In this document: positions 7,951 to 35,606 of the stretch, in pieces
Numbering within the stretch: the first letter of the stretch is position 1
Layout of the letters: every line of letters starts with the position of its first letter
Assembly (NCBI GenBank): GCA_913057205.1
Contig: CAJXNO010000023.1
Span: 1 to 39,635 of the forward strand
DNA: 39,635 nucleotides
Origin: an uncultured Flavobacteriales bacterium
Lineage (GTDB): Bacteria; Bacteroidota; Bacteroidia; Flavobacteriales_G; Salibacteraceae
Direction of reading: 5' to 3'
The notes under the pieces: model-generated
Database searches by the model: none
The model's input: the letters and a program-made list of their open reading frames with translations, nothing else
Told to the model about the DNA's origin: nothing
Made by a program: the position numbers and the translations under genes

Positions 7951-8487
7951 TTAGGACTCGCGTTCTACCACGTCTTTCAATCGGCGGACACCCAAATCGA
8001 AATCCGGACCGAGCATCTCATCCATATCGAAAAGCAAGTTCATGACATTGAACGGGTATGGCGTGTGATCATGGTATGTCCACGTCACCTTCGTTTGATC
8101 GCCCATTGGTTCTAGCGTAGTGGTAGCATCCGCTTCTGATTCGAATGGACGGATGAAATGGAGGTGGGTAACCACTTCGTTTTCTGACATGGCGGTAATG
8201 GTTTGGCTCCCCGCCCCTACCAGGCTATCCTCGCCATCCCAAGTATAAAGCGCACCTACTTGTCCATCATTCTCTATCGTCACCTTTTGATTGGGATCCC
8301 GATCAGCCCATGGCGACCAAGTGAGCATGGCTTCAAAGGTCATGGTCTTTGCACGCACATCTTCAACCGGTGCATCAATGACAATGGAGCGTTCTACATG
8401 ATTTTCGTTCGGAGCAATCAGTCCAAGAATCAATAGGACAAGCACGAGGCTCACGATCGTGCCGAGAACAATCTTCAATAGTTTCAT
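7951..8487 (-). CDS. Membrane-anchored SRPBCC (START-like) protein
   Basis: A 178-aa protein. An N-terminal hydrophobic segment (about 5-25, LLKIVLGTIVSLVLVLLILG) is followed by a single SRPBCC/polyketide-cyclase-like ligand-binding domain with RSIVIDAPVEDV near its start and FDLGVRRLKDVVE as the last helix. Such proteins bind hydrophobic ligands; the ligand here is unknown. The topology suggests membrane anchoring with the domain outside the cytoplasm. The start is the ATG at 8487: ten more upstream residues are possible (from 8517) but would precede the lysine that opens the hydrophobic segment. No -7 box was recognised. Confidence 0.78.
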   Translation of the reverse strand: MKLLKIVLGTIVSLVLVLLILGLIAPNENHVERSIVIDAPVEDVRAKTMTFEAMLTWSPWADRDPNQKVTIENDGQVGALYTWDGEDSLVGAGSQTITAMSENEVVTHLHFIRPFESEADATTTLEPMGDQTKVTWTYHDHTPYPFNVMNLLFDMDEMLGPDFDLGVRRLKDVVERES

Positions 8488-8586
8488 AGTGTGGTGTATA
8501 AGTTGGTTGTGTATCAATAATACATCATATTTCCTATTGTTGATGCCCTTGATAATGTGTTGATTTGGATGCTTGAATCATCCTAT

Positions 8587-26208: not shown

Positions 26209-26810
26209 TGCCCAAGTTACGCACCATAAAGAAGCTTCCGAAGCTGGACATGAACCCTATGGTGGACATGGCCTTTCTGTTGGTGTGTTTTTTCATGATG
26301 ACCACCACCTTTAAAGAAGACATGCCAGCTGAGATCAGCATTCCATTCTCTAAGGCACAGTTAAAGGTACCATCGAAGAACCTCTGTACGATCACCATTG
26401 ATAAAGACGGGAAAATGTACGTTGGATTGGACAACAAATTTGACCGAAAGCAGATGCTTGGATACGTCTCCCGTACGGCGGGCGTGAACTTTACAGCAGA
26501 TCAGGCAGCGCGTTTTTCATTGCTTTCTTCGTTTGGATTACCACTCGAGGAGCTTCCTGCCCTACTCGACCTCGAAAAACTGGATCGACGGGCGTTTGAG
26601 CAAACTGGGATCCCCGTTGATAAAGACGAAAACGAATTGCGCTACTGGCTGATGGGTGCCCGTTTAGCTAACCCTCAACTGCGCTTTGCGATCAACGGCG
26701 ATGCCAATGCACAAGTAGCCGAAGTAAAGCGCGTTTTCGACATTCTGCAAGATTTGAACATCACTCGTTTCAACCTGATAACCGATACCGAAAAAGATGG
26801 CCCTTCCTGA
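26208..26810 (+). CDS. exbD: ExbD-like protein 1 with enlarged periplasmic domain
   Basis: A 200-aa ExbD/TolR-family protein. The transmembrane helix with its proton-carrying Asp is LDMNPMVDMAFLLVCFFMMTT (about 13-33). The periplasmic part is longer than in the usual 130-150-aa ExbD: about 60 extra residues (roughly 75-135) precede the conserved FAINGDANAQVAEVKRVFDIL. It overlaps exbB by 1 nt and exbD2 by 14 nt. The extra segment may pair with the second ExbD or with cell-wall partners; this is inference. Confidence 0.9.
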   Translation: MPKLRTIKKLPKLDMNPMVDMAFLLVCFFMMTTTFKEDMPAEISIPFSKAQLKVPSKNLCTITIDKDGKMYVGLDNKFDRKQMLGYVSRTAGVNFTADQAARFSLLSSFGLPLEELPALLDLEKLDRRAFEQTGIPVDKDENELRYWLMGARLANPQLRFAINGDANAQVAEVKRVFDILQDLNITRFNLITDTEKDGPS

Positions 26811-27345
26811 GTTAGAAGACATAAAGGTTGAGCGCATCAACGAGCGGGAGTCTGACAACAAAGTCAAAAAACGCAACCTCGACATCGACATGAACCCGAT
26901 GGTTGACCTTGCCTTTCTATTGCTCACCTTCTTCATGTTGGCAACCACCTTCAGCAAGCCACAGGCGATGGAATTGTTGATTCCAGCGAAACCAGAGGAG
27001 CAAGAAGAGCAAGAAATGGCGGTGAAGGAATCAAAGACAATCTCCTTAGACCTAAGCAAAGACAAGGTCATTTGGTATCAGGGTATCACCGATCCTGACA
27101 CCCATGTGGTTTCTTATCAAAAATTAGAGTCGATCCTGACTCGCTTGAACGGTGAGATCGATGAAATGGTGGTATTGATCAAGCCTTTGCCAAGCAGTAC
27201 CTTCGGACATTTGGTGGACGTTTTCGACGCGCTGAATTACAGTGAGGTAGGCCGATACGCCATGAGCGAACTGAGTGAATTTGACGAATCACTGGAGTCT
27301 TCAGCAGGTGAAGCAACTGAACCTGAATCAACGGTGGCGCCATGA
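26797..27345 (+). CDS. exbD: ExbD-like protein 2
   Basis: A 182-aa ExbD/TolR-family protein. A charged 30-residue N-terminus precedes IDMNPMVDLAFLLLTFFMLATTF, which has the same Asp in the helix as ExbD1. The periplasmic part is standard and ends in an acidic tail. Its ATG lies 14 nt inside exbD1, and its stop overlaps the tonB ATG (ATGA, 27342-27345). Two different ExbD subunits in one operon suggest a mixed dimer in the channel. Confidence 0.9.
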   Translation: MALPELEDIKVERINERESDNKVKKRNLDIDMNPMVDLAFLLLTFFMLATTFSKPQAMELLIPAKPEEQEEQEMAVKESKTISLDLSKDKVIWYQGITDPDTHVVSYQKLESILTRLNGEIDEMVVLIKPLPSSTFGHLVDVFDALNYSEVGRYAMSELSEFDESLESSAGEATEPESTVAP

Positions 27346-29939: not shown

Positions 29940-32075
29940 ATGAAACCACTGCACGAAATAGCTTTTGAAGACCTGGTAGGCGATAGCATACCGGGTAAGG
30001 CGAACCATACGGGATCATGGAAGGCCCCAGAAGGAATTGATGTTCCCGAACAAAGCGATCCGCTTTCGGCGGATACAGCACCACACCTCGCCTTCGGAGC
30101 AGGTACTCCTCCTTATCTGCGCGGTCCGTACTCAAGTATGTACAGCATTAGACCGTGGACAATCCGCCAATACGCTGGATTCAGCACAGCAGAAGAATCC
30201 AATGCTTTCTATCGACGGAACTTGGCTGCTGGACAAAAAGGACTCTCGGTGGCCTTCGACTTGGCAACTCATCGCGGCTATGACAGCGATCACGATCGGG
30301 TTAAAGGGGACGTGGGAAAAGCTGGCGTAGCGATAGATACGGTAGAAGACATGAAGGTCTTATTTGACCAGATTCCGCTGGATCAGATGTCGGTTTCTAT
30401 GACCATGAATGGTGCGGTGATCCCCGTTATGGCCTTTTTCATTGTAGCGGCAGAAGAACAAGGCGTGGAACCGGCCCAGTTGACCGGTACCATTCAGAAT
30501 GACATCCTGAAGGAATTCATGGTGCGGAATACGTACATCTATCCGCCTGCTCCTTCTATGCACATCATCGGCGACATCTTCGCCTATATTTCTCAGCGCA
30601 TGCCGCGATTCAACTCGATCAGCATATCGGGCTACCACATGCATGAAGCGGGCGCTACAGCAGACATTGAATTGGCCTACACCTTGGCAGACGGCTTGGA
30701 ATACATCCGTACAGGATTAGCGGCAGGATTAGACATTGATGATTTTGCACCTCGCCTCTCCTTCTTTTGGGGCATCGGTATGAATCACTTCATGGAGATC
30801 GCTAAGATGCGTGCGGCTCGGGTACTTTGGTCGAAGATCGTACAGCAATTCAATCCAAAGAAGCCGAAGTCGATGGCCCTTCGGACGCATAGTCAGACCT
30901 CTGGCTGGAGTTTAACCGAGCAAGATCCGTTCAACAATGTAACCCGAACAAGCATGGAGGCCTTGGCCGCAGCGATGGGTGGGACACAGTCTTTACATAC
31001 GAACTCCTTGGATGAAGCCATCGCACTTCCTACGGACTTTTCCGCGCGGATTGCTCGGAATACCCAACTCTTCTGGCAGTTAGAGAGCGACATCCGCGGG
31101 GGAATCGATCCGTGGGGAGGCTCCTACTACGTGGAGTACCTGACCAAGGAGATCATTGAGAACGCATGGAAGCTCATTCAGGAGGTGGAAGAACTCGGAG
31201 GCATGACCAAGGCCATCGAAGCAGGTGTGCCGAAGCTACGAATCGAAGAAGCCGCTGCTCGGAAACAAGCTCGGATCGATAGTGGTCAAGAGATCATCGT
31301 AGGTATCAATCGTTTCCAAGTTGAAGACGATATGGAGCTTGATATCCTCGATGTGGACAACAGCAAGGTGCGTAAAGCACAAATTGAGCGCATCAATAAG
31401 GTGAAGTCTGAACGAGATCAATCTTCGGTTGAAGTTGCCCTAGATGAGATCACAAAGTGTGCAGAAACCGGAGAAGGCAACCTACTCGCACTTGCTGTAG
31501 ATGCTGCTCGGAAACGTGCCACCTTGGGTGAGATCAGCATGGCGATGGAAAAGGTCTTCGGCAGACACAAAGCGCAAACCCAAAGCATCAGCGGTGTTTA
31601 TTCAAATGAAATGAAGGCAGACGAATCCTTTGAGAAGGCACGGAATTTAGCAAATGAGATCGCACAAACAGAAGGTCGCAGACCACGCATCTTGGTGGCA
31701 AAAATGGGTCAAGACGGCCATGATCGAGGTGCAAAGGTCATTGCAAGTTCCTTCGCAGACATCGGATTCGATGTAGACATCGGACCACTCTTCTCTACCC
31801 CAGAGGAAGTGGCTCGGATGGCCATGGAGAATGACGTACACTTCGTTGGTGTAAGTAGTTTGGCCGCAGGTCACAAGACCTTGATCCCAAATCTGGTAGA
31901 AGCATTGAAAGCGGTAGGGCGTGAAGATGCGATCATCGTAGCTGGCGGAGTAATCCCTCGTCAGGACTATGATTTCCTTTATCAAGCGGGAGTATTCGCT
32001 GTTTTTGGACCTGGAACTGTCATTTCTAAGGCAGCGATTGAATTGTTGGAGGAAGTAAAAAAGAGAATTGAGTAA
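29940..32075 (+). CDS. mutB: Methylmalonyl-CoA mutase large subunit MutB
   Basis: A 711-aa catalytic subunit. The N-terminal barrel binds the CoA ester, with [25 protein letters not shown] and [14 protein letters not shown] conserved. The C-terminal cobalamin domain starts at about 580 with [11 protein letters not shown]; His594 in DGHDRG is the cobalt ligand. It closes with [19 protein letters not shown]. With MutA it links propionyl-CoA to succinyl-CoA. No MeaB chaperone or epimerase gene is in the window. The next frame starts 21 nt later. Confidence 0.97.
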
Positions 32076-32096: not shown

Positions 32097-34045
32097 ATGC
32101 CTCGGAAACCCACCCTGTATCTACTTTTTGCACTCCTGTTTTTAGGGGCTGGACAGCTCTTTGCGCAAGGTCCAGATGAGCGCATCGATCAGGTAAAAGC
32201 ACTTCTGTACAGTAATCCAGACTCTGCAGAGGCTATCTGCTTGCAATTATTGGAGGAGAAATCGTCATTATCCACTTCAGATTTCCTGCAGGCTCAGCGC
32301 TTCTTGGGCATTCTTTTAGACCTAAAGGGAGAATAAGAGGCCAGTTTAGATGCCTACAACGTCATTCTGAATTACGAAATCACTACCGAAGACAGCGTGC
32401 ACTGGGCGAATGCCGTCTTGGGTAAGGGAGTCATCTACCATAGACTTGGGCAATTTGACAAGGCTCTTGAGCTGTATAAAATTGCGCTGAGTTACGATGA
32501 CCGGAATGGATTAGCAGATCGGAGCGCATCCGCGTTGAGCAATGTGGCAGCGTTGTACAACAATTTAGGTTTGTATCAAGAAGCGATTGACATTTATCGC
32601 ATTCAACTGAACAATTCCGAGGTTAAGAACGTTCTGCCCGTTGCGCGAATATCTACTTGAATTTGGCAAACTCGTTTGAGCAAAAGGATGAGATCGACAG
32701 CGCCATTCACTACAACAATAAGTCGATCATCCTCCACAATGCTACCAACGATCTCTACGGGCTAGGTTCAAACTACCACACGAAAGGAACACTTTTCAAG
32801 CATCTCGGCATGCTCGACAGTGCTTTGTACTATTACAACCTCTGTATTTCCCCAACCGAGGGCATTTATTACAAGTACAACCTGCCAAGCATTCTGATCT
32901 TGATGGCAGAGACCTACTACCTCCAGCGAAAGAATGAGGTTGCATTGATCTACCTGGATTCTGTCTACAATATGATCGAAGCTGACGATGACGAGTTGGC
33001 CAACATCGAGGCAGTCAAGCAACTAGAAGCGCTGATCTGGGAGCAAAGAGGCGATGTAGAGCGAGTTGCAGCGTCTTGGAAAGCTGCCCACGCCGCCTTA
33101 GAAAAGATCGACCTACAGCAACTCGACGCACGATTATTGCGCTTCTCTTAAGAGACCAAGGCGCTTTACTACGAAAAGGTCCTCGCGAAGAAAGATACAG
33201 AGAATACAGCCCTTGTTACAGAGAATGAGCGAAAAGCGAAGTACATCTTCTGGTTTGTTGCAGCAGGTGTGGTATTGGTTGCGCTGTTGATCGCCTTGTA
33301 CGTAGCCTGGTGGAGCCGAGAGCCCTACAACAAGGTCTTGGCGGCCCACAATAGGGATCTGGACAAGCACTTAGAATCGAACAAGAGACTGCTGTCATTG
33401 ATCGCTCATGACTTCCGTACGCCGATGAAGTCGATGAACAGTATGCTTGACCTGATCGAGCACAATAAGCTGAGTGAAGAAGAGTTGAAAGAAATCTCAA
33501 AAAAGGCGAGGAACCACATCCGCACTACCCTCCGAGGAATGGACCAGATGCTCCTTTGGATCACAAAAGACAAGAAGGAAGTCTCCATTCAAACAAACCG
33601 CCTTCAACCATTGCTCCAAGAAGTGAAAGAGTTCTTCAGCTGGGAGTTGGAATCCCTCAATGCCACTTTGAACATCGCTTCACTCGATGATCATGTCATG
33701 CGCTTTGACTTGGGCCACCTGGAGGCTATTGCTCGAAACATCGTAGGAAACAGTCTGAAGTATTGCAAGGAGGGCTGCATCATTGATGTGAGCTACAGTC
33801 AGTCCGCAACAGAGGAAACGCTCTCTTTCCATGACAATGGACCAGGAATCGACGAAAAGACCCTTGCTCAGATTCAATCCCAAACCTTCAGATCCTTGCT
33901 ACCGCATCAAAACAAGCGGTCATCATCCACCGGTCTAGGTCTGGAACTCGTGTTTGAACTGGCAGACCTGAACGATGCACGCGTGGTGGTAGACAGTACC
34001 TTGGGCCAAGGAACGTCCGTTTCCATTGTGCGTAAGCTCGACTAA
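32097..34045 (+). pseudogene. TPR sensor histidine kinase interrupted by two stops and a frameshift
   Basis: Read through its lesions, this is one protein of about 649 residues. It has a signal peptide (LLFALLFLGAGQLFAQ), TPR repeats across 32200-33140, a coiled coil, a transmembrane helix (33240-33310) and a histidine kinase: H-box LIAHDFRTPMKSM, N-box IARNIVGNSLKYC, G1 DNGPGID and G2 TGLGLELV. Lesions: TAA at 32334-32336 (GE-stop-EASLDAY), a 1-nt deletion near 32645-32650 (VAR to NIYLNLANSF), and TAA at 33149-33151 (RFS-stop-ETKALYY). The reading frame is otherwise kept. The TPR lesions sit at positions where Tyr, Gln, Lys or Glu would be natural. Recent inactivation is most likely; sequence error or recoding is possible. 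Confidence 0.85.
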
Positions 34046-34046
34046 T

Positions 34047-34406
34047 TTACCATTCTTCCTTCCTTCTCACCAGCAGCAGCTGTTCCTCATCCAAGAGCAG
34101 GTAACCCATTTCATAGCAAAAGCGATACACATCTCCTTTCTTGGTAGGAAACTCATGCGTGAAATAGTTGAAATCGAACCCCTGTTGGAGCAAGTGACTT
34201 CGGGCTATCTTACGCTTTTCTTCCGGCACCAAGCTGTGGAGGATCCTTCGGTTCCTGCGCAAAACGTTGTTGATGTTGCGCATGACCTTGTTGATATCGC
34301 TGTTATTTCTGTTGTTGAAAGCGTTCCTGCACTGATCTGAGCAGAACTTCTTGTCTGATCGACCCACTAAGGGATCATTGCATTCTTTACATTTCCGTTT
34401 ATCCAT
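34047..34406 (-). CDS. Small zinc-ribbon protein
   Basis: A 119-aa cytoplasmic protein. The N-terminus is a zinc ribbon with Cys6, Cys9, Cys22 and Cys26 (CKEC...FCSDQC). The rest is helical and basic: RRNRRILHSLVPEEKRKIARSHLLQQGFDFNYFTHEF. It may bind nucleic acid, but I know no proven role. The reading frame is complete, unlike both neighbours. It ends 1 nt from the convergent histidine kinase stop. A good promoter lies upstream. Confidence 0.8.
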   Translation of the reverse strand: MDKRKCKECNDPLVGRSDKKFCSDQCRNAFNNRNNSDINKVMRNINNVLRRNRRILHSLVPEEKRKIARSHLLQQGFDFNYFTHEFPTKKGDVYRFCYEMGYLLLDEEQLLLVRRKEEW

Positions 34407-34508: not shown

Positions 34509-35606
34509 ATGCGCTTACCCCTTGCCCTGACCCTTTCGCTGTGTTCCTTTCTGATCATCAACCATACACACGCTCAAACCAAAGTGGTGAACACCCCTCG
34601 TGTGAGTCCGAAAGCCTCGGTTCATCAAACAATCGGGATCACCGAAGTAGTGATCAATTACTCCCGCCCGGCAGTACGCGGCAGAGCAATTTAGGGAGCT
34701 GTGGTTCCTTACGAAATGTCTAATCCAGGTTGGGGCACTTCTGAACTAGCCCCTTGGCGAACCGGTGCAGATGAAAACACCACCATTTCCTTCAGCACCA
34801 ATGTAAAAGTGAACGGGGTTGCCATTGCATCAGGCACCTATGGTCTGTTCATGGATGTGAGCGAGAACGGAGATGTTCAGCTGATCTTTAGCAGTAACAC
34901 CGACAGTTGGGGTAATTACTTCTTTGATGAATCGGAGGTAGTAGCACGCGCCAAGACCACCTGGGAGGAACACAGTTTTACCGAATACCTGGAGTTTACC
35001 TTTCATGGATTCACCCCCAACAGTGCTTACTGCGCTTTGAATTGGGAAGAGAAGTCCATCCCCTTCGAGATTGAGGTTGACCTCAATGCAACGGTGGTGG
35101 AACAACTGCGCCGCGATCTTCGAGGTACGGCACGTTTCAGCTACATCGGTCCGATGGAAGCCGCCAACTGGTGCGTGATGCATGAAACGAACCTGGAAGA
35201 AGCCTTGGAGTGGGCTACCCTCGCAGCAGACATGAACCCACAGTTCAATACCCTCTTCGTAAAGTTTGAAGCCTTGAAAGTACTTGGCAAGCAGGATGAA
35301 GCGAAAAAAGTCATGGAACAGGCCTTGCCAAAAGGAACCGTGTATGAACTCCACTCCTACGGAAGAAGCTTGATTTAAGAAGGCAAAGTAGACGAAGCTA
35401 TATCCATCTTCAAGAGCAACGCAAAGCTCCACAAGGATGAATGGCCCGTCAATTACGGTTTAGCACATGGATACTCTGCAAAGGGTGATTACACCAAGGC
35501 GATCGAATACCTCAACAAAGCGAAAAAGAATTGTCACGACGACCTCAACCGCAAAATGATCGAAAAGAACCTTGAGCGATTGGAACGGAAAGAAGATATC
35601 AACTAA
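34509..35606 (+). pseudogene. DUF2911 protein interrupted by two in-frame stops
   Basis: Read through, a 365-codon gene: signal peptide (ending HTHAQ), then DUF2911 (residues 20-180) with SPKASVHQTIG, VINYSRPAVRGR, PWRTGADENTTISF and SGTYGLFMD, and a C-terminal TPR-like part (SIFKSNAKLHKDEWPVNYGLAHGYSAKGDY). Stops: TAG at 34692-34694 (RGRAI-stop-GAVVPY), where family members usually have an aromatic residue such as Trp (TGG to TAG), and TAA at 35376-35378 (RSLI-stop-EGKVDEAI). All pieces are in one frame, with no indels over 1.1 kb. The function of DUF2911 proteins is unknown; they are abundant in Bacteroidota and predicted to be exported. Confidence 0.87.

Follow-up and report, generated by a model that had tools for sequence, protein, structure and literature searches.

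Does a histidine kinase frame that carries two in-frame TAA codons and has lost one base still give rise to a kinase, has the gene been inactivated, or is the sequence in error at this place? This question is raised by positions 32097-34045 on the plus strand of the window, i.e., the whole stretch of 39,635 bases analysed here, which makes up an entire contig (C23) of genome G000 (2.83 Mb, 68 contigs), from an uncultured Flavobacteriales species. A search of titles and abstracts returned nothing on this kinase gene among the matches listed. We conclude, with a probability of roughly 0.88, that what remains here is a pseudogene: an accessory gene for a membrane-bound histidine kinase with TPR repeats, inactivated recently.

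The kinase frame and its intact relatives

When the three lesions are read through, the stretch forms a single TPR-TM-HisKA-HATPase_c histidine kinase frame. The features of the locus are as follows:

29940-32075, plus strand: methylmalonyl-CoA mutase gene, intact; conserved flank upstream of the kinase
32097-32333, plus strand: kinase piece 1, from the ATG at 32097, with a signal peptide (by eye), ending at the first TAA
32334-32336, plus strand: first in-frame TAA, at a column that is aromatic in two relatives
32337-32626, plus strand: kinase piece 2, TPR repeats in the first frame (Pfam)
32627-32657, plus strand: frame-change interval, with a net loss of one base
32658-33148, plus strand: kinase piece 3, TPR repeats in the second frame
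33149-33151, plus strand: second in-frame TAA, read in the sequence
33152-34045, plus strand: kinase piece 4, with a TM helix (by eye), HisKA (below its Pfam cut-off), HATPase_c and the terminal TAA at 34043-34045
34047-34406, minus strand: small Zn-ribbon-like gene, intact, named by eye from its cysteine pattern; no Pfam match
34509-35606, plus strand: DUF2911-TPR gene, broken by TAG at 34692-34694 and TAA at 35376-35378

Both TAA codons were found where a preliminary description of the locus had placed them. The frame change lies between the TAA at 32624, the last stop in the downstream frame, and the TGA at 32658, the first stop in the upstream frame. Pfam models matched TPR repeats in the first frame and, in the second, HATPase_c at 51.5 bits and HisKA at 24.0 bits, the latter under its cut-off of 26.9; the signal peptide, the TM helix and the H (HDFR), N, G1 and G2 boxes were called by eye. 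With these matches and calls, the domain order of a TPR histidine kinase (TPR, TM helix, HisKA at its sub-cut-off score, HATPase_c) is present across the broken frame, in agreement with the earlier claim that the TPR and kinase domains are kept. No Rfam match was found anywhere in the window.

The two frames both matched one and the same ORF of 672 aa in another genome, G008 (E 4.3e-69 and 1.4e-14), and the dicodon scores of the kinase pieces fell at the 23rd, 67th and 28th percentiles of 225 long ORFs from the same genome as the window. Since two frames match a single ORF and their coding scores are ordinary, chance is not an issue, and since the coding signal of all pieces is normal, the loss appears to be recent. 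G008 gave the closest kinase match within the genus (13 genomes) outside G000, at 30% identity; for the second kinase piece, identity was 30% to G008 and 23% to a further relative, G015. The kinases of G008 (contig C210) and G015 (contig C10) are each one open frame, of 672 and 656 aa, respectively, with no in-frame stops. Like the window kinase, these TPR histidine kinases from the same family of bacteria have a signal peptide, a TPR region, a TM helix and H, N, G1 and G2 boxes (by eye) in the same order, and Pfam finds TPR and HATPase_c in the G008 copy, with HisKA absent at E 1e-4. Unlike both of them, the window kinase is one base short and interrupted by two TAA codons. The segment spanning the break measures 23 nt in the window and 24 nt in G008 and, aligned with G015, 50 nt versus 51 nt. 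One base fewer than in both relatives fits a net loss of one base, provided that whole codons were neither gained nor lost, and bears out the 1-nt deletion described earlier. The column of the first TAA holds Tyr in G015 and Phe in G008, which fits the earlier guess of a Tyr at this lesion. Since the G008 and G015 kinases are single long ORFs, these two relatives have one long gene and not several short ones; separate short orthologues, which the preliminary description had considered as the contrary case, were not seen in the two relatives read.

The same evidence bears on whether the pieces could be functional split genes, e.g., a truncated membrane kinase translated from the GTG at 33269, which would be an ORF of 258 aa with part of the TM helix, HisKA and HATPase_c. 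However, no in-frame ATG, GTG or TTG occurs in piece 4 between the second TAA and this GTG, so that the first possible start after that stop sits within the TM helix, and the relatives encode one long ORF each. We consider working split genes to be extremely improbable. Judging from the sequence, translation would stop after 79 codons and no kinase product would be expected; the kinase core, which offers no start codon until halfway through the TM helix, would probably yield no product either.

The accessory position and a second broken gene

In all five same-genus genomes read at this place (G003, G006, G007, G009 and G011), the mutase gene adjoins the Zn-ribbon gene, which is followed by DUF2911-TPR, i.e., the order of the window minus the kinase. 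From one aligned end to the other, the gap between mutase and Zn-ribbon gene in these relatives measures 66 to ~540 nt, and a tblastn search of all five gaps turned up no remnants of the kinase. Missing at this place in 5 of the 5 relatives read, the kinase is an accessory gene at this locus. A small membrane-anchored protein (called by eye) occupies the place of the kinase in G009 (L084/L085), G007 (L031) and G006 (L119), and the gap is therefore a variable spot. At some point the lineage had the kinase between the mutase and the Zn-ribbon gene, a difference from the five relatives that may stem from gain in this lineage or from loss elsewhere. We infer that constraint on the gene then ended and that the lesions now seen, two nonsense changes and a loss of one base, accumulated thereafter.

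On the plus strand, the kinase is followed by a further conserved gene, DUF2911-TPR at 34509-35606 (Pfam PF11138, 127 bits); it contains two in-frame stops, TAG and TAA, which the preliminary description had missed. The column of the TAG at 34692 is Trp in all ten other aligned sequences. The genes that flank and separate the two broken ones (mutase, Zn-ribbon, DUF1232 and dnaQ-dnaE) are all open, the dnaE frame running from 36151 to the end of the contig without a stop. Among the six closest DUF2911 orthologues, three are broken at different positions (G000, G003 and G011) and three are intact (G006, G007 and G009); the stops of G003 (TAG and TAA) and G011 (TGA) lie elsewhere than those of G000. 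All five stops across the three broken orthologues are nonsense changes, with zero frame changes, and stop-only damage of this kind would be unusual for pseudogenes. In G001, a more distant copy at 39% identity is interrupted by a single TAA. Since a DUF2911 match at E <= 1e-30 occurs in only 7 of the 13 genomes of the genus, the gene is dispensable. It would seem to be dying in parallel with the kinase, and likewise, by different stops, in two other species of the genus. Such parallel breakage in three species by stops at different places is a mild surprise. In a wider DUF2911 collection, an internal stop was found in 1 of 80 named loci (the best 80 of 572), that one being G011, and in 0 of 77 once the three members of the genus were set aside; because the search required conserved peptides, these counts favour intact copies.

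We also asked how the two stops of G000 compare with missense change in the same gene. Random substitution is expected to bring 3.0 changes at conserved columns and ~19 missense changes in DUF2911 for every stop. In the 75 columns with at least 90% conservation, G000 showed 12 missense deviations, compared with 5 in G007, 6 in G009, 10 in G003, 8 in G011 and 9 in G006; by our own count 7 of the 12 were private to G000, a number inflated by G000 having no near sister in the set. Sites unique to G000 made up 38 of 340 in DUF2911 versus 701 of 6,663 in 20 other genes of the window. The gene is thus not faster overall in G000, which speaks against relaxed constraint, and its two stops come without a matching clear rise in missense change. 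More deviations at conserved sites, yet no overall acceleration, both fit a loss too recent to have left a strong trace. Still, the missing acceleration of DUF2911, together with stops that are never paired with a frame change, counts against recent inactivation. Because three of the six closest DUF2911-TPR orthologues were each broken separately, and by stops only, one might propose that nonsense changes in dispensable genes of this genus act as a reversible off-switch or allow low-level read-through, the kinase being one more such gene that then lost a base. We think this very unlikely; if true, in-frame nonsense in dispensable genes of this genus would not simply be decay.

Sequencing error, read-through and gene decay

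Conserved genes were surveyed in a sample of 799,635 bases (28% of the genome), using as queries 56 orthologue-like genes derived from G009 and 78 from G003 at cut-offs of at least 45% identity and 70% coverage; together these defined 111 intervals covering 118,940 bp. Stops within the first 40 residues of a query, which arise from errors in the upstream start and do turn up when this filter is lifted, were left out. True internal stops occurred in DUF2911 only, and no frame changes were found in the 111 intervals. Two flagged G003 queries, both counted in the 111 intervals, were rejected as lesions, being antisense shadows of polA.

These results bear on a local error of assembly or sequencing, under which the true genome would have an intact kinase and an intact DUF2911. 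Both broken genes lie no more than 7.6 kb from the end of the 39,635-base contig, and kinase genes in two genomes of the same genus, G004 and G010, show frame changes that by eye resemble assembly noise. However, the remaining ~117.9 kb of conserved sequence contained no true lesion, and at the 95% upper limit on the rate the two broken genes should together carry 0.08 lesions, whereas 5 were seen. A uniform rate of sequencing error across the genome is excluded. Moreover, the genes around and between the broken ones are open, if random substitution had created the four stops, dozens of missense errors should accompany them, yet DUF2911, at least, is not faster than other genes, and only one indel is found among the lesions. 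A patch of error restricted to these two genes, with the Zn-ribbon gene that separates them left untouched, could be at work, but we think it unlikely.

The preservation of the frame might instead suggest that TAA, and TAG with it, is suppressed or recoded, and that the kinase is made. Belinky et al. (2021; PMC7918605) argue that many in-frame stops in bacterial genes are tolerated, and those common to several species often so. The cases here resemble these in having in-frame stops within an otherwise conserved frame, and DUF2911 of this genus does show in-frame stops repeatedly (in G000, G003 and G011 of the six closest orthologues, and in the G001 copy) versus 0 of 77 among the best 80 of 572 named loci elsewhere, in a search that favours intact copies. 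They differ from those cases in that no stop position recurs from one species to another, and in that the kinase has a frame change as well. The same stop position was found in no two species among DUF2911 of G000, G003 and G011 and the stop-free kinases of G008 and G015; the cases here therefore fall outside those that the shared-stop test of that study would count as tolerated. The stops in DUF2911 occur at different places and are of three kinds, with no conserved site, and outside DUF2911 no true in-frame stops in conserved genes were seen among the 111 intervals.

The translation machinery also speaks against suppression. Of 336 ORFs from the first sample, 140 terminate in TAA, 99 in TAG and 97 in TGA. 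Two class-I release factors are open: RF2, which scores above the cut-off of its NCBIfam model, and a putative RF1 on contig C10, which has no internal stop. None of the 33 tRNA genes found (32 read by ARAGORN and tRNA-Trp, L226, by eye) would read a stop, in a list that is incomplete, since tRNA-Asp and tRNA-His are not among the 33 despite a stated genome completeness of 99.94%. Read-through would not cure the lost base in the kinase, and the neighbouring DUF2911 is broken by TAG as well as by TAA. Suppression of TAA is not supported as an explanation of the kinase frame, and we give stop suppression or recoding almost no weight.

Therefore, of the three options that the preliminary description had left side by side, recent inactivation was strengthened by the intact relatives, the accessory locus, the normal coding signal and the broken neighbour; suppression of TAA was weakened by the release factors, the tRNAs and the involvement of TAG; and error proved unlikely on a genome-wide scale. 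The kinase shares with other bacterial pseudogenes its accessory status, intact homologues elsewhere, several lesions and a normal coding signal left behind, and nothing essential sets it apart from a typical one, its lesions being those of the assembled sequence. Most likely, then, the inactivation is genuine and ordinary, and the kinase is one more bacterial pseudogene. An eye-catching frame would in this case reflect ordinary gene decay, and frames of this genus that can be read through their breaks should not be taken as recoding.

Interrupted genes elsewhere in the genome and the genus

A genus-wide excess of broken kinases was also considered, and we claim no biological excess. Open frames shorter than 220 aa were found for 12 of the 150 HATPase_c matches listed from the genus versus 1 of the 150 listed from eight other genera; the corresponding numbers, again among 150 listed matches each, were 11 versus 0 under 180 aa and 12 versus 5 under 260 aa. 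By our own count, stops were marked inside the HATPase_c match in 5 of the 150 listed from the genus versus 4 of the 150 from the other genera. Three of the twelve short frames are cut by contig ends (L256, L257 and L258), and four, in G004 and G010, have the noise-like frame changes noted above (L249, L251, L252 and L254). The excess is thus partly an artefact. The frame-broken kinases of G004 and G010 confound counts of broken genes in those genomes. One short frame, in G000 (L250), resembles a rearranged fragment, and the remaining four contain an in-frame stop (L253 in G010, L026 in G001, L027 in G011 and L028 in G007, where the end of the contig is close by as well); these four may be real decay. 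At a further place with a marked TAA (L255), no break was found. Another histidine kinase of G000 (L023, contig C17, 41510-42268) has an in-frame TAG, and its upstream part is not open in the same frame.

Stops were also sought with a scan of dicodon scores, which is incomplete, since neither TAA of the window kinase was picked up by it. From the 439,635 bases of the first sample came 19 candidate places; of 14 read further, eight looked like ordinary gene ends (among them what we take to be rplK-rplA, prfA, truB and sugar genes) and six as if a gene were interrupted in frame. Five more places came from the second sample, one of which (L246:12338) was read further. The probable in-frame stops of the sample hit dispensable kinds of gene, several of them named by eye, which favours decay; scattered broken dispensable genes are the usual background of bacterial pseudogenes.

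Several of these places in G000 may be described individually. On contig C1, a gene resembling a TPR-SpoIIE phosphatase (Pfam) has an in-frame TAA and TGA (L062:3674 and L062:4244), apparently with further breaks upstream, and an IS3 transposase (by eye) has a probable in-frame stop (L059:6137). Probable in-frame stops were likewise read on contig C3 in a TPR kinase (by eye; L069:9704) and before an OmpA domain (Pfam; L069:10791), on contig C13 in a porin-like protein (by eye; L246:12338) and in an end resembling a secretion tail (L246:2117), and in a MORN-like repeat protein (by eye) on contig C2 (L066:15257). Among the relatives, the G009 orthologue of window positions 7951-8517 has an in-frame TAG after Tyr-Tyr (L091:6587), and the G003 orthologue of window positions 26797-27345 has a frame change in mid-gene (L098:5617-6125).
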